Under the pieces are notes generated by a model. That model was not told the DNA's origin, ran no database searches, and saw nothing but the letters and a program-made list of their open reading frames with translations. A program made the translations under genes and the position numbers. This document shows, in pieces, positions 10,870 to 61,239 of a DNA stretch of 64,000 bases. The stretch is from assembly GCA_015143295.1 (NCBI GenBank), contig CM026563.1, positions 4,960,001 to 5,024,000 on the forward strand. The letters are read 5' to 3'. Within the stretch, counting starts at the first letter, position 1, and the number at the start of each line of letters is the position of its first letter. The stretch comes from Tetracentron sinense. Lineage: Eukaryota > Streptophyta > Magnoliopsida > Trochodendrales > Trochodendraceae.

Positions 10870-11027
10870 AAAAATTAAAGCTAGAAGATGTGGTTCAAGA
10901 GATATCTCGAGCTCCCAAAATTATAGAGGTATGCTACCCTACTCTAAGACATTCCTTGTCAGCCAAAAATAGCAAGAGTATGGCTATCATTTTTCACAGA
11001 GTAGACTGCTTGTTGACTATTGCCAAT

Positions 11028-11400
11028 GGCACAGGATTCTCTCGAGTTCAACTCGAGAGAATCTCGAGTTGGAACCCTAGAGGTCACCAAGTGTCCTTTG
11101 ACACCTCTTAACCATGGGTAAGGTTCACCCACCCCTAGGGTTCACTAACCCATCCTTGGTTTTTTTTTAAAATTAATTATTATTTTTTAAATTAAAAAAA
11201 CTGTTTTTAGAGTTTTTTAATATTAAAAATATTTTTTTAATTTAAAAAATAATAATTAATAAAAAAAAAAACCGTGAGTGAACCCTAAGGGTGGGTGAAC
11301 CTTACCCATGGTTAAGGGGTGTCAAAGGAGACACGTGGCGACCTCTAGGGGTTCCAACTCGAGAAATTCTCTCGAGTTGAACTCGAGAGGGTCCTGAGCC
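11028..11400. repeat. Palindromic Mutator-type MITE, 'GGCACAGGATTCTCTCGAG' ends
   Basis: A 373-bp near-perfect hairpin flanked by ATTGCCAAT/ATTGCAAAT (11019-11027, 11401-11409; 9 bp, one mismatch). The gene 3 unit reads straight through at the corresponding place (TATTGCCAATTTGTGCCAAC near 19420), giving an empty site. Three further copies are stacked at 38751-39910. Confidence 0.85.
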
Positions 11401-11650
11401 ATTGCAAATTTGTGCCAACTCCCGGAAACCACCTCAAAAAACTAAGAGAGAGAGAGAGAGAGAGAGAGAGAGGTCCTTTCTTAGAAAAGAAACATTGAAC
11501 AACAGTAAGTAGAACCAGGAGTGTTAGCCCCATTTCAGGCCTTTAAAAAAAGTTCGGATACTTGTTGATTGAAGCAGAGAGTAGAAAACCGAGAGTATGG
11601 CTAGCAATGTTCTAAGTACAACGCACCCGCACCCGCACACTTGGACTTGT

Positions 11651-24970: not shown

Positions 24971-25772
24971 TATATAGAGAGAGGTATTCATGTTTTTTGG
25001 AACCGGAAAGCTGGGTTAGGCGGACCCTACAACCCTGCGCTTCATAAGAGATAATCTTAGCTAACAAGGGCGGGAATAACTCCGAGCTAACTATAGACTC
25101 ACCAAGGGAGGTGCTTAGTTTTGACAGAGATATTCATCCATATGGTTAGCCCTACTACTGCGTTTGGGCATGGTACTGATCCGACTATGAGGCGTTTTGA
25201 ATATCTGCTTCTTGGGGCACCAGTGTATATGCCTAAGTTAACGGGTTTCTCATTTTTTTTTTAATAGTACCTTCAACTAAGTAAAGAGCACATGACAGCT
25301 CCCCCATTGACCCAGTGGCAGAGCAGTGGCAGAGGAGGTGTGACAGATGAAAGCCACCGTGACTAGCTAACCGATTAATGCCTCACCTACTAACATTAGT
25401 GTTAGAATAAGTGATGCCAACATTACCCATATATATATATATATATAATAAAATAAAAAGCACATGGGCAGCAGCCTGTTCTAAAAAAATGATTTTTTGA
25501 AATAGCAAGAAATAAGTTGATTTGATGGCAGACCAATTGAACCAAATATTAGAATTATTGGCTCTAATAGCCATTTACTCATATCATTAGGGAGATCCAA
25601 ATCTTTGATCAATGAGTATAAATGAGTATAACGATAGCCATAAAAACGTCATATGTTATTAACTTCTTATAAAGAGAGATTATGACTATATAACAGATGC
25701 CAATCCATGGAGAAAGCAAGTTATTATCACTTGGATTTGGTTAAGGGGTGGACCACGAGTCATTGGTTTACA
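24971..25772. other. Upstream flank of gene 3
   Basis: Non-coding. Positions 25140-25310 and 25335-25430 match 48745-48960 and 50265-50365, which marks this as the distal 5' flank of an NPF unit. A (TA)n tract lies at about 25427-25447. Confidence 0.55.
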
Positions 25773-26062
25773 TAAGGGGCGGAGCTAGGATTCTTTTGTA
25801 GGGGACTAAGAATGGGGGTTCGGGGGCTATGCCCCGAAATTTTTTTTTGGGGCTAAGTTCATGAGACATTGCCTCTGTTTGTATCCGTTTTGTAAAGAGA
25901 ATCTTTTTTTCTCAAAGATTCACGGGTGGCTAGAGCTCCCCGTCCTTCGGCTCCACCCATTTCTAAGGCTACACCCTTATTATTGCTATAGTAAAACAAA
26001 AAAAAAATTCAAAATTTCAGGGGGGGCTTCAGCCCTCCCTAGCCCCATGTGGCTATGCCGGT
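25773..26062. mobile_element. Non-autonomous hAT element
   Basis: About 290 bp. The left end reads TAAGGGGCGGAGCTAGG and the right end complements to ACCGGCATAGCCACATGG. There is an exact 8-bp duplication GGTTTACA (25765-25772 and 26063-26070). The right half matches the left end of the hAT element at 54707. An inner pair of hAT-like ends near 25925-25960 suggests a composite. Confidence 0.75.
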
Positions 26063-27448
26063 GGTTTACATCCACAGTTGCCTCTTCTTATTGATCTGGA
26101 TGGATGATTCTACAATTTCCTGCAATTTGTATCAAAGCCCATTGTTGGCTCTAAGATCCTTCCAAAAGTATAGAGCACTCAAATTGCCCTATCAGCCCAC
26201 CAAAAAAAAAAAAAAAATGCCCTATCTCAACGTCAAGGACTCAAGAAATGAGTAGCATTGAAAAAGAGAAATTGATCAGGTGGTAACGGAATTCAGATGG
26301 TTTGTACGAATGCTATACTTGGAGACAAATTCATATATATTACCAAAACATATAAAAAGGGTCGTGTTAGAGTTCATGCAATGCGTGAAAACGCAAGGAA
26401 ACAAATGAAAGGTATAAATGACACTTATGTAATTAGTTATCATAAAATCAATTAAAGAAAATATTTCTAAGAATACCCTTATTCCTTTTATCTATTATCA
26501 AGAATATCCTCATTTTAAGCCTGCTTGAAAATTTTTGAGAATTCACTCATTGCGTGACTCCCATTCCCCTATATACAGACACACACACGCGTAAGTTAGT
26601 TCAGGAGGTAATATATAACAACAAAAGAAAGTTGAGAAAGCCTAAGCAAAAACCTTAACCCTAAGTCTCTTCTCCAGACTCCGGGACCAGGGATTATCTA
26701 AAATTTGATTTTAGTGCATGACAAGATTAATTTTGTGTAATTTATTGTATTATAATTTAATAATAAATATTTCTATTAAAATTGTATAAAACTAGTCAAA
26801 ATAACTACGAAATTCGAATCAAGCTTGAACTAATCAAAGCTGGCTGGACTCAGCTTGAATTGTGTTCGAGCTAAGACCAGATACTAGCCAATTGGAAATA
26901 AACTTGGAGTGCTCAATCGCATCACATGCCCCCTTTTAACCTTGGTTAAGAAATTTTAATTCAAGGGTTAATTTTTAAAAAAATATATTTTTTCCAAAAA
27001 TCTAAGGCTAGATTGTTGAACCCTAATAGTTAATGAATCTTAACCACAATTAATGGGATTAAAAGAAATACATGTTGACTAGTAGATGTGATTGAACTCA
27101 GGGAGACCTCAATCACGATTGAATATGATCCCAACTCATTGGAGCTTAATCAAGTTTTTTCAAGCCAAGCACGAGCATAAACATTTAAGCTCAAGCATGT
27201 TCGGTGCAAGCTCGGCTCAATACATGGCTACCCAAATCCCTATTGATTTTACTAGCTTTTTATGGATTTTTCTTTATTATTTTTTTCCTTTGGATTTCTT
27301 TTATTATTATTTTTCTTTTTATTTCCTTTTCATGCTTACCAAAGAAAGCTAGTGTTTTGCCTTTAATTTCCCAATTGGAAGGTGAACAAGGTCCCGTTCA
27401 TTTACTGACTTAGAAAGTCTGACACTGACAACTTTCATCATTTGACAA
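26063..27448. other. Intergenic repeats including a degenerate palindromic MITE
   Basis: No gene seen. Positions 26905-27130 hold a palindrome of the 7606/47505 family. Positions 27140-27400 match 50450-50640 in the paralogous NPF-RLK flank. Confidence 0.45.
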
Positions 27449-37769: not shown

Positions 37770-40426
37770 CTAGAGTCCTAGACAATTGGAGAAACCTGAA
37801 TTTGTACAACATGTCAAAATTGGACTAAACAGGTAGGTTCTGTCCGGTTAACCAACCTTTGGTCCAGTTCGACCGAATGTGCTACTGGTTTACTGATTGT
37901 GGAACTTTGACCGATAGCAATTGACTTGCAACCGGCTTGGTCAACCGACTTCCCCACAAGTTTGAGCCACATCACTACACAATGGTAGTCCATGCGATCT
38001 ATTCTCATATGAGATGACTTGCAAGCGGTCCACCCTGCTAACCACTAACTAATGTTACTACCAATAGGTAAATGATACAATTTAAATACAAAGAGGAGCT
38101 CTGCCTCACGCTGTTGAGCGGAGTCCCCTTTTTACATTGTGAAGGTGGCAATGTCACAATTACATGTGTTGCGAAATTGTTCCAGATTTTCTCAATAATT
38201 ACAACCGTGCCACTATCCTAGTGTAAATAGGGGAGCTCTGCTTCAACGCCATGAAGCAGAGCTCCGACTCAAAAGTAATCTCTAAATGATATTGTTAAAA
38301 GAAGCCAAATCCTCTACGGTGATAACCGGATTTGGCAAATTTGATTATCACCCCTAGAGGTCTCCACCTGTCCCGACACCCCTTAACTGTGGTTAAGATT
38401 TACTCATCCCTAGGGTTCACCCATTCATTTTTGGTTTTTAGAAAAAAATATTAATTATTTTTTAAAATTAAAAAACTGTTTTAGGGTTTTTTTAATATTA
38501 AAATATTTTTTTTAAAAAATTAATATTTGTTTATAAAAACCAATGATTGGGGGGGGGGGGGGGGTAACCTTAGGGATGGATGAATCTTACCCACAAATAA
38601 GGTCGAATGTAGAATGAAAACCTTTTTCTTGGTAATAGAACATTGTTAAAAGATGGTAGAATAACTACCAACATGTGATCGGGTTGAACAATCAACCCGA
38701 ACAACTCAAATATTGTCTTGAGAGTTGAGAAGGGCTATTTATGGAAGGGAGTGGATTCTCTCAAGTTGCAACTTGAGAGAATCTCTCAAGTTGGAATCCC
38801 TAGAGGTCGCCACGTGTCTCATTTGACACCCCTTAACCATGGGTAAGGTTCACCCACCCCTAGGGTTCACTCACCCATCCTTGGTTTTGTTTTTATATTA
38901 ATTATTATTTTTCAAATTAAAAAACTGTTTTGAGAGTTTTGTAATTTTAAAAACAGTTTTTTAATTTGAAAAATAATAATTAATATAAAAAAAAATCAAG
39001 GATGGGTGAGTGAACCCAAGGGGTAGGTGAACCTTACCCATGGTTAAGAGGCGTCAAAGGAGACACGTGGTGACCTCTAGGGGTTGCAACTTGAGAGATT
39101 CTCTCAAGTTGCAACTTGAGAGAATCCTGGGCTTTTTTGGAAACAAAATGTGTTAAAAATACCATTCGTATTTTTTAGTTTCTCGTAAGGCACAGGATTC
39201 TCTCGAGTTCGAACCCCTATAGGTCGCCACGTGTCTCTTTTGACACCCCTTAACTATGGGTAAGGTTCACCCACCCATCCTTGGTTTTTTTTTTTATATT
39301 AATTATTATTTTTAAATTAAAAAAACTATTTTTAGAGTTTTTTTAATATTAAAAAAAGTTTTTAATTTAAAAAAAAAGAATTAATATTTTTAAAAAAAAC
39401 CAACGATTGGATGGGTGAACCCTAGGGGTGGGTGAACCTCACCCATGGTTAAGGGGTGTCAAAGGGGACACGTGGCAACATCTAGGAGTTTGAACTCGAG
39501 AGATTCTCTCGAGTTCAACTCGAGAGGATCCTGAGCCTTTCCGTAATAGCACAGGATTCTCTCAAGTTCAACTCGAGAGAATCTCTCGAGTTGGAATCCC
39601 TAGAGGTCGCCATGTGTCTCCTTTGACACCCCTTAACCATGGGTAAGGTTCACCCACCCCTACGGTTCACTCAACCATCTTTGGTTTTTTTTTTTTTTAT
39701 TAATTATTATTTTTTAAATTAAAAAAATATTTTTAATATTAAAAAACTCTAAAAACAGTTTTTTCAATTTAAAAAATAATAATTAATAAAAAAAAAAAAC
39801 CAAGATGGGTGAGTGAACCTCAAGGGTGGGTGAACCTTACCCATGGTTAAGGGGTGTCAAAGGAGACACGTGGCGACCTCTAGGGTTCCAACTCGAGAGA
39901 ATCCTGTGCCATTTTTGATTGGGTTGCTTCAACCGGAGCTCTTGTTAATCTCATGCAATAAACACTTTGGCTAATAAATGAGATTGTTAGCCCTTACCAG
40001 CAAGGATATAAAAGAGGAAATAATAATGACTGAAGAACAGCCCAAAAAGGAGTCGGCAATAATGGCTCCGGCAATAGGGAAGAGACTGGTGCAACCGTAG
40101 ACTATGTTGGAGATCTGTGCGGCGTCGATGCTCTTCACGTTGAATTCCCCTATCAAATACACTATTATGTTCGATATCCACCCTCCGGCTGCTAGTGTTA
40201 GACCCATCACACACCCTGTCCATGTTCAAACGGGTGCAACATACATCTATGTTAGATTCTAGAGAGAGAGTGAGAGATTCTAGAGAGAGAGAGAGAGACC
40301 TGTGATAAAAGGGAAGGTAATCCAACCCCCTCGTTTGCGATCGCCGTTTTCCAATCGTCCTTCTTCGTTGGGTGTAAATTGGCCGGAGAGTTGGCCTTCA
40401 AAGTGCCGGAACTCAGTGGCTGCCAT
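33031..40426 (-). CDS. NRT1/PTR family (NPF2, NAXT-like) transporter, gene 4
   Basis: Four exons on the minus strand: 40426-40300, 40215-39998, 36504-35966 and 33874-33031, encoding 575 residues. Exon 1 is 12-15 bp longer than in its siblings because of a small internal repeat (GQLSGQF). It has the family features of gene 1: KRGGWITFPF, GEFNVKSIDAAQISNIV, GGTRFTVATMGADQF at about residues 164-178, TIRKRK, SSFRFLNRAAL and GEAFHFPGQVALYYQEFP. In the third exon, GADQFQKPK replaces GADQFDKPK and YVEDN replaces YVQDN. The ExxE(R/K) motif is absent. Exon 4 is closest to gene 1. Introns 2 (3,493 bp) and 3 (2,091 bp) are enlarged by MITEs, three of them in tandem. A GAGCTC palindrome lies 100 bp upstream of the ATG. 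Confidence 0.9.
34081..34291. repeat. Mutator-type MITE in intron 3 of gene 4
   Basis: A 211-bp element with ends GAGGAATGCTACCCCTATTC and the inverse of GAGGCGTGCTAGCCCTACTC, and an exact 9-bp duplication TAAAAAGGA (34072-34080 and 34292-34300). It contains a direct repeat of GTTGGTGGAGGCTGAG. Confidence 0.8.
34345..34520. repeat. Mutator-type MITE in intron 3 of gene 4, second
   Basis: A 176-bp palindrome with AAGGAGTGCTAGCCCTACTC ends, flanked by GCCATCCAT/GCAATCCAT (9 bp, one mismatch). It lies 54 bp from the previous element and has related termini. The GGGAATGCTAGCCCC ends of the MULE at 14053 belong to the same terminal type. Confidence 0.75.
37249..37276 (-). mobile_element. Helitron 3' terminus in intron 2 of gene 4
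   Basis: On the minus strand, hairpin CCCGTGCATCGCACGGG is followed by GGCTTTGCTAG and then T. The body would extend to higher coordinates (perhaps to the (TA)n at 37741-37768). The 5' TC end was not found. Confidence 0.55.
38089..38271. repeat. GAGCTC-hairpin MITE in intron 2 of gene 4
   Basis: Starts AAAGAGGAGCTCTGC and ends ATGAAGCAGAGCTCCGACTC, with nested small hairpins at each end. It is the same family as 40526-40698. Confidence 0.65.
38306..38605. repeat. Palindromic MITE, 'CCAAATCCTCTAC' ends, degraded
   Basis: The left end CCAAATCCTCTACGGTGATA matches the inverted right end of the element at 5997-6345. The right end is lost. It contains a run of Gs (38549-38564). Confidence 0.55.
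38751..39910. repeat. Three stacked palindromic Mutator-type MITEs in intron 2 of gene 4
   Basis: Copies at about 38751-39132, 39189-39537 and 39549-39910, each about 350-380 bp, belong to the GGCACAGGATTCTCTCGAG family of 11028-11400. The middle copy has a degenerate 9-bp flank repeat (TTCTCGTAA/TTTCCGTAA). Each can fold into one long hairpin with a TTAATTATTATTTTT-type centre. Confidence 0.8.
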
Positions 40427-53155: not shown

Positions 53156-54706
53156 TATAGTTTTAATAATACTTGCACATCATTTCTTAGTTCTTTTTTC
53201 CCTTTATTTTTGGTAAGCTCAATAACACCACAGGGTGATTACTGAAGGCAATTGAAGGAAACACTCACACCACACACACAGCAATGCAAACACACACTAC
53301 ACATGCAACCCTAATAAGCTTCACCCTAGAGCTCCTCAAAACAGGTAACAACCGTTTGAGATGGCATCTTGGATCTCCTTGAGAACCTCTGACATTGATG
53401 GCCTCATACTCCCGCGAGGTTGGGTACACATGAATGCTTTCTTGGCGATCTTCCACACTGATTGGATGTCATACTCATTGCGCAGAGAGGGATCAGTGAT
53501 TCCCTGAATGTCTCCACTCTCAATGTGTAACTTTGCCTGTTTTATAAACAAAACAACCGTTAAGAATTTGAGAGAAAAAACAAGGGTAGAAGCTGAAGTG
53601 GAATAATGAATATATAGAGCCTCCTAGACTAGAAAATTAAACGGAAAAAAAGGTTCCCTTGTTCCCATAAGAAGAGATGGAGATATGACTGACCCATTGG
53701 ACTATGTAACGGCAGTCGCTACCAAAAGTTTCATTAGAAATTGCTTCTTGACCAGAAATCAGCTCGAGAAGGATGACCCCAAAACCATATACATCACTCT
53801 TCTCTGTTAACTGCTGAGAGATATAGTACCTGCTGGTCAAGTAAAATTAAATACAATTGGAAAGCAAGAGTAAGAAGACATGAATAACTAAAATTCTCAT
53901 TTCACGTGGACACATTTACATGTCACAGAGAACATTGGATGCAAGCGGCTGCTTCTTTAACAGGAAGAGCACCACACTGTACCATTCATGTAGCCAACAA
54001 TTTATTGATGTTCTGGAGATTTTAATCAGAAGCAACATCTTCAATAGAGCGCCAGATCTTTAATAAAGACCACTACAAGGCGGGCCGGTGATGCTTGAAT
54101 GGTTGGGCACACATTTAATAAAGATCTGTCCCATAGCGCGTGTGTCTGAAAGGAACACTCAAACAGGTCAAGACCATAAGACAGAAAGGTCAAATGGGAC
54201 ACATCTAATGAGTCATTATTGAAAGTTTGAAACCCCAGGAACTAGAAAATAAGCTTCAAGGGTTCATTGAGACCATCAGCCATCAAGTTTAGTTTTTCAT
54301 ACAATTTGAACCTTATCTGCATGAAGCTAGATTTTGAAGATTCGAGAGGGCGGCAAGGAATCACACTCAAAAAGCAAGTCATGGAAATAACTGTGATAGT
54401 TAATCCCATATAAAAGATAAATATATATCCTACATTCCCACTTAATTATGTCAAAACTTAGATGCCAATAGTAATTGTTAGAATCCCAAAAGGCGAGAAC
54501 AGAATAAGTTTATAAATAAAGGTTGTTTAAGCTTTTAAGGTGATTACAGTCATGGTAGCAATAGCTGGTAGTAGAAGATTCTGAGATCTCAACTCTCAAT
54601 GCAGGAAGAGGGGCAGATCGAAATCCCGAACTGAACAGGAAATCTTAGGAAGCAAGGGTCCTGTAATTGAGTTTGAACAATTCCTATATTACTGTCTCTC
54701 TGTGAG

Positions 54707-57584
54707 CAGGGGCAGAGCCACATGGGGCCCAAGCCCCCCCTGAAATTTTGAATTTTTTTTACAATAGTATTAAAAGCCTGTGAGAGGGCCAGAGCAGGGG
54801 ATGGGGGATCTAGCCACCCCTAAACTTTTGAGAAAAAAATATAGAGGAAAGTACGGATATAGGCTCCCAATTATGAAATAATCCGAAATTGGACTCCACT
54901 TTTAGGGAGTAATTTTTGTAGGCTCCTATAGTGTTTTTAGTATAGCACGTGCTTTCCCTTCTTTTTTTCTCTCCAAAATACCCCCATCTCTATTCAGGGA
55001 CCCTTTCAACACCATGTGAGCCTTCAAGTTCTCAACACAAACTGAGTTCAACTCAAGCTTTCTCCTTCGTTGCAACCGAGCTAAACACTTCTGCTTCATC
55101 TGAAACCCTTCAACACAAACTGAACTAAACCTTTCTGCTTCATCCGAAACCCTTTTGAAGAAAAAGAAAAAGAAGAAGAGTTCGAAGAAGAAGAAAAAGA
55201 AGAAGAAAAGTGTTTTATACGTTTTTGATCCATTTTCGATGGTTATAGTGGCTATTTTCGATTTTTTTTCTAAGGTTTTGTGATCATTTTCGGGATTTTC
55301 TGTTATTACAGTTTATTTTATGTTATTACAATGCATTTTCAATGGTTTTGTTCTCATTTTCGATAGATTTGTACTCATTTTCGGTGGTTTTCTGTTATTA
55401 CAACGCCCATTTTCAGGGGTTTTTTATTATTAGAGTGCATTTTCGATATTACAGTGCATTTTCGATGGTTTTGTGCTCATTTTCGATGGTATTTTGTCTC
55501 ATTTTCGGTGGTTTTCTGTAATAACTGAAAACCACCAAAAATGAGACAGAAAACCACTGAAAATGAGCACAAAATCATTGAAAAAGCACTGTAATATCGA
55601 AAATACACTATAATAACATAAAATCCCCAAAAATTGGCACTGTAATAATAGAAAACCACTGAAAATGAGCACAAAACCATCGAAAAAGCACTATAATATC
55701 GAAAATACACTATAATAACAGAAAACCCCCGAAAATAAGCACTATAATAACAGAAACCACAAAAAATAAGTACAAATCCATCGAAAATAAGCACAAAACC
55801 ATCGAAAATGCATTGTAATAACAAAAAACCATAAAAAATGAGCACAAAATCATCGAAAAAACACTGTAATATTGAAAATGCACTATAATAACAGAAAACC
55901 TCGAAAATTGGCACTATAATAACAGAAAACCACTAAAAATGAGCACAAATCCATCGAAAATAAGCACAAAACCATTTATTTTTTAAAAAATAAATTGTAA
56001 TAATAGGAAACCATCGAAAATGAGAACAAAACCATCGAACTTGAGAACTGTAGCCATCGAAATAAACTGTAATAACAGAAAATCCCGAAAATGAGCACAA
56101 AACCCTAGAAAATATTGAAAATGACCACTGTAACCATCGAAAATGGATCAAAAACATATAAAACACTCTTCTTCTTCAAAAGAGTTTTGAATGAAGCAGA
56201 AGGGTTTAACTCAGTTTGTGTTCGATAATTCAGTTTCTTCTTCATTTTGTGTTTTATAAAAATCGTAATTTAACTCAGTTTGTGTTTGCTAACTCAGTTT
56301 GTGTTTGATCAAAGCTAGCAAACATGCATCAATTTCAGTGCCTATTTTCGGGGGTTTTCTGTTATTATAGTGCATTTTCGATATTACAGTGCTTTTTCGA
56401 TGGTTTTGTGCTCATTTTCGGTGATTTTATGTTATTACAGTGCATTTTCGATGGTTTTATGCTTATTTTCGATGGATTTGTGCTCATTTTCGGTGGTTTT
56501 CTATTATTACAGTGCCTATTTTCGGGGGTTTTATGTTATTATAGTGCATTTTCGATATTACAGTGCTTTTTCGATGATTTTGTGCTCATTTTCGGTGGTT
56601 TTCTGTTATTACAGTGCATTTTCGGTGGTTTTCTGTTATTACAGTGCTTTTTCAATGGTTTTATGCTTATTTTCGATGGATTTGTGCTCATTTTCAATGG
56701 TTTTCTGTTATTACAGTGCCCATTTTCGGGGGTTTTATGTTACTATAGTGCTTTTTCGATGATTTTGTGCTCATTTTCGGTGGTTTTTTGTCTCATTTTT
56801 GGTGGTTTTCAGTTATTACAGAAAACCATCGAAAATGAGACAAAAAACCACCGAAAATGAGCACAAAACCATTGAAAATGCACTGTAATAACAAAAATGC
56901 ACTATAGTAATAAAAAACCCCCGAAAATAGACACTGTAATAACAGAAAACCATCGAAAATGAGCACAAATTCATCGATAATAAGCACAAAACCATCGAAA
57001 ATGCGTTGTAATAACATAAAATAAACTGTAACAACAGAAAATCCCGAAAAAGATCACAAAACCCTAGAAAAAATCGAAAATGACCACTGTAACCATAGAA
57101 AATGGATCAAAAACGTATAAAACACTTTTCTTCTTCTTTTTCTTCTTCTTCAAACTCTTCTTCTTCAAAAGGGTTTCGGATGAAGCAGAAGGGTTTACCT
57201 CAGTTTGTGTTGAAGGGTTTCAGATGAAGCAGAAGGGTTTAGCTCAGTTGCAACGAAGGGGAAGCTTGAGTTGAGCTCAGTTTGTGTTGAGGACTTAAAG
57301 GCTCGCAGGGTGTTGAAGGGGTCTCTGAACAGAGATGAGGGTATTTTGGAGAGAAAAAAAAAAAGGAAAGCACGTGCTGTACTAAAAACCCTGTAGGAGC
57401 CTACAGAAATAACTCTCTAAAAGTGGAGCCCATTTTCGGATTATTTCATAATTGGGAGCCCATATCTGTACTTTCCTCAAAAATATATCCTATACAAACG
57501 GACACTAACAACACGATGGCCCATGAACTTGTCCCTCAAATAAAACAAATCCCCCTCGGCAAGAGAATCCTGGTTCCGCCATTG
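54707..57584. mobile_element. Small hAT element split by a Mutator-like element
   Basis: Left end CAGGGGCAGAGCCACATGG; right end complemented CAATGGCGGAACCAGGAT. There is an exact 8-bp duplication TCTGTGAG (54699-54706 and 57585-57592). Without the nested insertion the element is about 234 bp. It is in the intron between the RLK exons at 57821 and 53829. Confidence 0.85.
54844..57478. mobile_element. 2,635-bp double-hairpin Mutator-like element
   Basis: Terminal inverted repeats start GAGGAAAGTACGGATATAGG and remain alignable for about 480 bp or more. The 9-bp target duplication AAAAATATA is exact (54835-54843 and 57479-57487). The interior is built from about 50-bp units (TTTTCTGTTATTACAGTGCA, TTTTCGATGGTTTTGTGCTC) arranged as two successive inverted pairs, with turning points near 55520 and 56815 and a unique spacer at about 56165-56335. 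There is no transposase. Long low-complexity reading frames (for example 56324-56860) only reflect the repeat. Confidence 0.85.
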
Positions 57585-59689
57585 TCTGTGAGTGCATGCT
57601 TAACTGTACGTATTGCAGGCTACGAAAACAAAGAACCCGGTGGATTTAAAATTTCAAGATCCAGTTAGAGTAACAGAATGAATCCATATGTAGCCCAATT
57701 TGTTTGCTCCATGCAAGTGAAAATAGCTAAGCAAAGGTATTCTAGAGCTTCAACCATAAATGATAATACCAGACGTAGTCATTAATAAATTAAAAGTATT
57801 GATGAATAGAGAGGGCTTACTCAGGATCTAAATATCCTACGGTGCCCTTAACCACGCTTGAGACATGTGTGGCTCCATCTGCTGCAATTTTTTATAAACC
57901 AAAGTCTAAGAACTTTGCTCTCATGTGTTTGTCAAGAAGGATGCTGCTGCTTTTGAGATCCCTATGGATGGTTTTTGGAGCACAGCCCGTATGAAGGTAC
58001 TCAATACCTGAAACAAGTTTGTGAATAGAGTGATTTCTCTTAAATTGAAGGAGTGAGCCCTCCTGAAAAACTAGTATTAAACTTATCCTCCGGCACAGTA
58101 ACCTTTTGCAGCATCCTCAGCTATCTCGAGGCGATTGATCCAACTGATACTTCGCTCATGTGTTAAAGGTCCTAGAAAAAATTATTAGCAGATAACTTGA
58201 GATCCGAAACTAAGTTGTTAAAAACTAAAGGGACATATGAGACTTACCATAAAGATGTTCCTTCAAGTTCCATCATGCATGAACTCATAGACAAGGATAT
58301 TTTTCCCTTCTTCTTGGCAGTACCCAAGAAAGTGTGCAAGGTTTCTGTGATGTATCCTTGAAAGTAGAGCCACCTAGATAAAATGCAATCATGGGTCAGT
58401 TTACAAGAAGCACTTTCTGAAGGGTTATATGAAAGAAACTGGACTATATCATTCTAAGGAAATTAACTTAGTCAGAATAATGAAACAAGTCCTAATGGAA
58501 AATTGAAGGTAGGAATATTATTCAATAAAGGAAGAATTTTTATGACAGGGAACTGAAAAGGTTTCGCTTTGCTCACTTTGGAACTGGAGCACAAGCAGAC
58601 ATTTTGTACATTCGACTTTATTACAATTAAACTAAGTGTTCGTTGGATTGTGGAGAATAAATTACAATGGTAGGAGTACTGAACTTATATCAAATATGGT
58701 TAATCTCTTCATGAATAACTTAGGTTGCTGGTTTGGATTATTTTAGATATTAAAAACATGGCTTTGGTTTTAAAAAGAATCAGTAGCACAAACTGATATT
58801 GAACTAAGATGACTAACTTTCCCAAAAAATTCGCAAGTCTCACGCATTAGATGAAAAGGGAGAGGGATGCGTTACACCCTCATTTCTCAGATTCTTCATT
58901 TTAAACTCGCCTCTAAATTCTCTCATTAATCGATCAGGGTTTCATCTTGTTGCTTGAGTATGATGCTGTCTGTCCTCTTCCAGGCACAAACTGATAATGA
59001 AAAGTCTGGCAGAAACAAGTATACAGAAAAGTATTTTTATTTTTATTTTTTTATGTTCCTCATACCATTTCTCCTTTGTTCCTTTATTATTATTACTTTG
59101 GGCTTTAATTTTTCTCTTAATTTGGTTGTTTGATGTTTGTTTCTTTGAATTGAGGCTATTCAGTTTGCCCTCTCGGTCTGGAAATGCTAAATTTTGATGC
59201 TTCCTGAATTTTTGGGTTCCATTTTTACTAGGATGACTTTTTCTTCTTTTTCATAAATAGTGTTTCAACTCAAGTGATGCAAGGATGAGATACCATATGT
59301 GGTTTTAAATTAATAGATGAATGCAACAAAGATCGAACAAATTTCAGTTTGGACTGCTATGCAGACTAAATTGTGTGGATCCTTTTCAATTTGGAACCAT
59401 ATATGGGCGGTAAACTATCAAGAGAATACCATAGAGATATCATTAAATTGTGATCCTGGAAGCACTAACTACATTTCCTTTTGTCCATTTTTTCTAGATA
59501 TTTTTCCTTGCTCGAAGAATGCTATAATCTGACATGCTCTCTTGATTTGTCTTTTTTATAAATATTCTAGTTTCCATTTTCTCTATGGAAATGATAGATT
59601 GTGATTGAGTTATGATGACATTAACTTTGTGGTTTCTGCTACTTTGAAAAATTCAGGTACATTGGAAAGGTAGATGGATTTCCAAGAGT

Positions 59690-60600: not shown

Positions 60601-61199
60601 TTGTTTCAAACTAGGATAACATTAGGAAATGGATCCATTTCAAGAAGACAAACTCTATGATACTTGGACAATATTTCATTTGGTATCTAACCTTCGCCAT
60701 AAGTATAGAAATATCAAAGACTCAACAGCTAGAACTACAAAAAATTATTAAAAAGGGAAATTGTTTAGCATGATAACATTGTGAATCATATAATATATAG
60801 TCTCCTGTTTCAAGATAGATTAAGCATGACAAAGATAGGTAAAAAAAAATAGAAGAACATAGAAAGAGGTTAAATTGGAAAGTTTCCTCATTTGAGAACT
60901 CTCGGTTCCCCTGGTAGGAATTACTGGTTAGAACTTTGACTGCTATTTCTTTTCCATCTTTCATTTCTCCGTAGTATACCACTCCAAAGCCCCCTGAACC
61001 AATTTCCTTCTCAAACTTCCTGGTGGCATCCTCAATTTCAGATAATGTGAAGCAATATATGGATTCTGTGCCAGCATCAGGTAAGGAAGAAACTAGTCTC
61101 TGAGCAGGCTGGTCTGAAAAAAAAGGGACAGAAAAAAGCCAGGTTTTGGGTCTATTGAGATTCTTCCCCCCAAAAAAATTAAATAAATAAATAGAGGGC

Positions 61200-61239
61200 G
61201 GTGCCAGGACCACATCAATATTTGATGACTACACCCCAA

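Follow-up and report, generated by a model that had tools for sequence, protein, structure and literature searches.

The window analysed here is a stretch of 64,000 nt of Tetracentron sinense DNA (C13:4960001-5024000), taken from the 1.16-Gb assembly of 1,479 contigs in which the genome searches were carried out. In the excerpt of its description used here, the published assembly of this species has 24 chromosomes of 65 to 33 Mb and a size of 1.17 Gb, and was built from PacBio and Hi-C data (PMC7709256). An intron of a kinase gene in the window holds a hAT element, which in turn holds a second and much longer element; the positions of these features are collected in Table 1. At the inferred splice sites the exons flanking the intron join in frame as ...PE/YYISQQ..., the slash marking the junction. 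The exon at 57895-58116 scored above the Pfam kinase cut-off (E 3e-9), and the exon stretches 53640-53846 and 60725-61228 gave weak kinase matches below the cut-off (E ~5e-4 to 7e-4). Judged by its sequence, we take the gene to be a receptor-like kinase. Its exon frame at 57895-58116 contains an in-frame TAA after DFGL (DFGL*KIAADG), and it could therefore be a pseudogene.

Table 1. Positions in the window of the nested elements, their target duplications, the segments of the inner element and the second hAT copy.
Feature	Position	Strand	Remarks
Kinase gene intron holding both elements	53830..57820	-	Splice sites inferred from sequence
hAT target duplication TCTGTGAG, 8 bp, left copy	54699..54706	.	
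hAT element	54707..57584	.	234 bp once the MULE and one of its two duplication copies are subtracted
hAT target duplication TCTGTGAG, 8 bp, right copy	57585..57592	.	
MULE target duplication AAAAATATA, 9 bp, left copy	54835..54843	.	
Inner element, very probably a non-autonomous foldback-type Mutator-like element	54844..57478	.	2,635 bp
Segment A1	54844..55520	+	Matches A4 at 91.4% identity; consists of outer terminus (~300 bp), GAA-rich stretch and minisatellite
Segment A2	55521..56240	-	Inverted minisatellite copy reaching the element centre
Segment A3	56241..56818	+	Minisatellite in + orientation; 88.8% identical to inverted A2
Segment A4	56819..57478	-	Inverted partner of A1; right terminus
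MULE target duplication AAAAATATA, 9 bp, right copy	57479..57487	.	
Second hAT copy without the MULE	25774..26063	-	Empty paralogous site
8-bp duplication ATGTAAAC of the second hAT copy	25766-25773 and 26064-26071		Sequence given on the - strand

The outer element has the 8-bp target duplication and the short terminal inverted repeats of a hAT element. Its flanks are exact copies of TCTGTGAG, starting at 54699 and 57585, which are the only two + strand occurrences of this sequence in the 64 kb, and its ends, CAGGGGCAGAGCCA and TGGTTCCGCCATTG, are imperfect inverted repeats matching at 10/14 bp. The second hAT copy also has an 8-bp duplication, ATGTAAAC, which occurs only twice when both strands of the 64 kb are counted. 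Aligned with the outer element joined across the insertion, this copy scored 187, whereas the highest score among 200 single-base shuffles was 47. As the second copy carries its own duplication and lacks the inner element, both insertions are independently supported. The inner element is flanked by exact copies of the 9-bp sequence AAAAATATA, starting at 54835 and 57479, out of six + strand occurrences in the 64 kb. An earlier note on this DNA had described a Mutator-like element (MULE) of this size nested in a hAT element, with these two duplications, and its coordinates proved exact. The order of insertion that it gave, first the kinase gene intron as the site, then hAT, then MULE, is supported by both duplications and by the hAT copy without the MULE. 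A clean nest of gene intron, hAT and MULE and an empty paralogous site are thereby available in a single window.

The window contains other repeats as well. Two clear palindromes lie at 38753-39127 (92%) and 39579-39903 (88%); those covering the stretch in between are larger and overlap. A related palindrome stands alone at 11024-11404 (84%). We assign these repeats to another family, MITE-like and palindromic, whose copies are in tandem or nested at 38753-39903. Between 1375 and 41500 there are repeated blocks, up to 93% alike, that hold pieces of a transporter gene, presumably NRT1/PTR-like, judged by the protein sequence.

The whole inner MULE is one inverted repeat, in which element positions 1-1124 pair with 1546-2635; in the best alignment of the two arms, 1,027 bases match and 110 do not (90.3%), and 122 columns are gaps. 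By self-alignment each arm is a palindrome in turn, at 385-970 and 1724-2229 of the element. The two hairpin apices lie near 55521 and 56815, and of the 32 bases compared between them 31 agree when one sequence is reverse-complemented. We divide the element into the four segments of Table 1, the boundary of A1 near the apex being our choice. The longest pairings are those of A1 with A4 and of A2 with A3, at the identities given in the table, and the other segment pairs are shorter and 88-90% alike. For the outermost 267 bp of A1 the sole full-length partner is the end of A4 (90.6% alike). These 267 bp recur inside the element only as pieces of at most 37 bp; the part of the terminal block into which A2 extends starts at base 268 of A1. 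The outer 300-bp ends are 91% alike within the window copy and up to 94.6% alike when compared with another copy. The shortest periods given by Tandem Repeats Finder are 19-32 bp, and the longer ones 51, 102, 123, 173/174 and 204 bp. Most of the element thus consists of inverted repeats of great length that contain tandem repeats, as in foldback elements. The earlier note had seen two consecutive inverted pairs composed of about 50-bp units. The two hairpins and the unit size stand, but the whole element is also a single inverted repeat, a global palindrome, and the units have both smaller sub-units and a higher order. The inner MULE is a palindrome of palindromes; the minisatellite sub-units of which it is built measure 19-32 bp, and the higher-order periods 51-204 bp.

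The predicted minimum-energy RNA fold of the inner MULE is a single giant hairpin of -1621.7 kcal/mol, compared with -563.6 ± 7.9 kcal/mol for 20 dinucleotide shuffles. The hairpin was predicted on both strands, and the shuffle controls were made on the + strand. With pairing restricted to a distance of 1,400 or 800 bases, the prediction changed to three main local hairpins with ~-1,070 kcal/mol. The inner hairpin at 55264-55790 had a fold z of -21.4. At the level of a fold prediction, this is in agreement with the earlier expectation that transcripts of the element would form long double-stranded RNA.

A first genome search for the family yielded at least 354 matches, which is a lower bound because 40 of 1,841 candidates were scored. 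Our sample consisted of 40 sequences, namely 39 loci picked by similarity and the window, and both ends were present in 24 of them. L044 and L045 were counted as one locus, leaving 23 distinct loci; in the other 16 sequences the stretch contained at most one end, and these do not enter the counts. The family termini are of the GAGGAAAGTACGGA type, the outer terminus beginning GAGGAAAGTACGGATAT. A 24-base terminus pattern had 105 exact matches in the genome, and the same pattern backwards had none. An exact 9-bp duplication directly at the ends was found at 13 of the 23 loci, as against 0/506 mismatched flank pairs. When small shifts were allowed, an exact duplication of 9-11 bp was seen at 15 loci (2/506 mismatched pairs), and with at most one mismatch a duplication was seen at 18 (6/506). 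No acceptable duplication was found in the remaining five (L011, L023, L034, L041, L044). The earlier note had stated beforehand that its reading would fall if the termini did not recur elsewhere with 9-bp duplications, and the 13 exact cases are such recurrences. Two features of MULEs are present, namely a target duplication of 8-11 bp, which in the window copy is an exact 9 bp, and long terminal inverted repeats common to several insertions. Since no transposase was found in the copies examined, membership in the MULEs is assigned from termini and duplications.

By a simple motif count, the two-hairpin orientation pattern is present in 11 of the 23 loci, with lengths of 2.0-2.6 kb. Self-alignment detected both palindromes (at least 200 bp), centred at 0.21-0.31 and 0.67-0.76 of the length, in 10 of these 11 short copies, the exception being L017, which has the right off-centre palindrome only. 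The architecture, previously described as unusual, is therefore not peculiar to the window copy but typical of one class of the family. Eleven longer relatives of 3.0-5.6 kb have blocks of alternating orientation by motif count, and in all 11 there is a direct repeat of at least 639 bp, its copies 79-91% alike and shifted by 572 to 1,646 bp. Tandem Repeats Finder, applied to five of these long copies, gave periods of 748 to 1,191 bp in L030, L034, L039 and L041, and not in L031. One of them, L030, forms an inverted repeat of 5,578 bp, the arms of which measure 2.5 kb and are 87% alike. L044/L045 has neither the double-hairpin plan nor the direct repeat of the long class. At C11:18134563-18142214 the minisatellite query matched seven times on one strand and eight times on the other, mostly 1,051-1,058 bp apart, forming seven inverted minisatellite pairs with a regular period of ~1,056 bp. 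This array may be a giant element or a nascent satellite.

Some further observations concern individual copies. L024 and L025 are 97.8% identical and L044 and L045 are 99.6% identical over 8.3 kb, flanks included; each pair consists of an unplaced contig and a chromosome, and probably represents two haplotypes of one locus. L012, L014 and L022 form a subgroup in which the left terminus has diverged. Their outer 300-bp ends are 70-74% alike within a copy, and their left ends are 91-94% alike between copies. A second, different minisatellite (like KISKLALSWPKISK) is found near or inside family termini in L048 (C589), L013, L028 and L047.

The genome was also searched for the autonomous relative suggested by the earlier note. 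Inspection by eye of the ORFs of 24 element sequences and 19 loci revealed no transposase-like ORF, and seven element-internal ORFs, two from the window and five from L029, L030, L041 and L048, had no Pfam match. The longest stop-free frames of the window interior (183 and 151 aa) run through the minisatellite and were rejected as coding; the window stretches 56309-56860 and 55480-55914, which have no Pfam match, were treated as non-coding. A tblastn search of 41 family sequences with the longest ORFs of ten MULE-domain loci, four of them shorter than 360 aa, returned nothing. No autonomous relative was found among the 150 MULE-domain candidates scored out of 1,282 in the genome, a proportion at which a partner may have been missed. 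Compared with 121 listed terminus places, the nearest of the 150 scored domains lay 7.9 kb away, and two lay within 20 kb, at 7.9 and 9.7 kb, both outside elements as judged by the listed ends. The 7.4-kb copy L048 (C589), the best candidate for an autonomous partner, was rejected; it has family termini, but carries a different minisatellite and no transposase-like ORF. A 583-aa ORF of L040 (5828-7576), which matches Pfam DUF659 (E 1e-47), lies beyond the family terminus and outside the element.

Foldback MULEs are already known as a kind, and what differs here are the nested palindromes and the multiplying hairpin units. The FARE foldback elements of Arabidopsis were reportedly described by Windsor and Waddell in 2000. 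In excerpts of citing papers, whose descriptions are our source for FARE, these foldback transposons of plants carry a long palindromic repeat at each end and are classed with MULEs, as is true of the family here (PMC4486113, PMC3169594). One FARE element contains a MULE-domain transposase (PMC3169594), whereas none was found here. MuTAnT of Medicago truncatula, according to parts of its description, is likewise a MULE with four similar segments in a hairpin-forming foldback, and has a putative autonomous mudrA-like relative (PMC4486113). Its first element is 292 bp, its family ranges from ~200 bp to >1.6 kb and its targets are TA microsatellites (PMC4486113, same parts), whereas the family here measures 2.0-5.6 kb, its arms consist of minisatellite and there is no TA repeat among its 15 exact duplications. 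At L023, a locus without a clear duplication, the right flank is a TA repeat. Judged by the parts of the papers used, MuTAnT is the nearest in plan among the systems compared, at a tenth of the size.

Two animal systems have similar features in the portions of their descriptions that we compared. Tm1, a Mutator/Foldback family of root-knot nematodes, has 9-bp duplications; its terminal repeats are composite, the number of tandem motifs inside them being variable, and its arms are on average 93% alike (PMC3169594). It differs in its motif of ~14 bp and in having a transposase-bearing member, and no palindromes within its arms are described in the parts compared (PMC3169594). Tetris of Drosophila virilis is, in the excerpt used, a non-autonomous foldback element with 8-10-bp duplications and with tandem repeats in its long terminal repeats that also occur as satellite-like arrays (PMC4079207). 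It is an animal element, and its ~220-bp unit comes without a hairpin description in that excerpt (PMC4079207). A literature search, most subscription papers lying outside its reach, returned portions of papers in which no hairpin-in-hairpin plan of such size was described.

The sister copies L012 and L014 are 91.5% alike left to left and 92.1% alike right to right, compared with 86.4% and 84.9% for left against right within one element. They keep the arm order, and the plan is therefore inherited through transposition. We read the double-hairpin plan as old, with copies that move as units. Under concerted evolution, gene conversion or palindrome repair after insertion would instead homogenise each copy again and again, making its arms alike, and so re-make the double hairpin at each locus. 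In line with this, identity of the outer 300 bp within an element exceeded the mean of 88 comparisons with other elements at 20 of the 23 loci, but the best match was another element in all 23, a test that leans that way because one within-element value is set against the best of 88. For the interior arms, within-element identity was above the mean of the others in four of the 11 short copies (window, L017, L020, L023), and nearly equalled the best other in the window copy (90.1% vs 90.5%) and in L020 (91.2% vs 91.6%). It was below the mean in the other seven, however, and never exceeded the best other. With the arm order common to L012 and L014 also arguing against re-making per locus, we regard concerted evolution as decidedly unlikely; some homogenisation may have taken place in a few copies, such as the window copy and L020. 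Long palindromes are prone to mis-assembly, and mis-joining might have made those seen here. This is hardly conceivable when 11 of the 23 loci, whose flanks differ, have the plan in common, which also answers the earlier concern that the internal pairs could be artefacts, and when the duplications are intact at both levels of the nest.

The four similar segments, and the extension of A2 into the terminal block, are reminiscent of Tandem-TIR MULEs, in which the inner copies would be terminal repeats duplicated in tandem. In the parts of Ferguson and Jiang (2012, PMC3310237) used here, such elements have multiplied terminal sequence and duplications, some having been amplified in the genome, and their extra termini are mostly in tandem. 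The inner copies here, in contrast, are inverted and lack the outer end, and in tandem with the outer terminal repeat no further one was found that resembles it over 100 bp or more. As A2 runs opposite to the terminus next to it, and as the interior has the outermost 267 bp only in the short pieces noted above, we consider this reading very improbable. The locus might also be a natural silencer of the Mu killer kind, the hairpin RNA of which would silence an autonomous partner; the palindromic copies would persist for this reason, and the failure to find an active partner would be accounted for. The very strong hairpin predicted on both strands is compatible with such a role, as is the position in a gene intron, where read-through is possible; in the excerpt available, Mu killer is itself proposed to act via a ~4 kb hairpin RNA from read-through (PMC3440606). 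Mu killer carries part of mudrA, however. As no transposase sequence was found in the inner MULE, its RNA could target only termini and relatives and not a transposase coding region, and the host kinase frame has an in-frame stop. We therefore judge a silencer locus, modelled on this precedent, to be rather unlikely.

Taken together, we are confident that the inner element is a non-autonomous Mutator-like element of foldback type. We suggest that a transposase supplied in trans by another MULE would recognise the outer terminus (GAGGAAAGTACGGATAT...) and move the unit, generating the 9-bp duplications. The minisatellite may have expanded within the long terminal repeats through tandem duplication, and switches of template from one inverted copy to another, in replication or gap repair, could have added to this growth. 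The outcome would be hairpins within hairpins and, in the long class, repeated hairpin-bearing units. If the host gene were read through, RNA with the predicted fold could give long double-stranded RNA and siRNA silencing of the family. That the hairpin-bearing units are the unit of amplification, and that the family is turning into a hairpin satellite and a natural source of double-stranded RNA silencing its own members, is a tentative and doubtful proposal. A family that keeps a palindrome of palindromes through transposition, and whose relatives differ in their number of hairpin units, would show how inverted repeats multiply inside a transposon and whether such copies silence their own kind.
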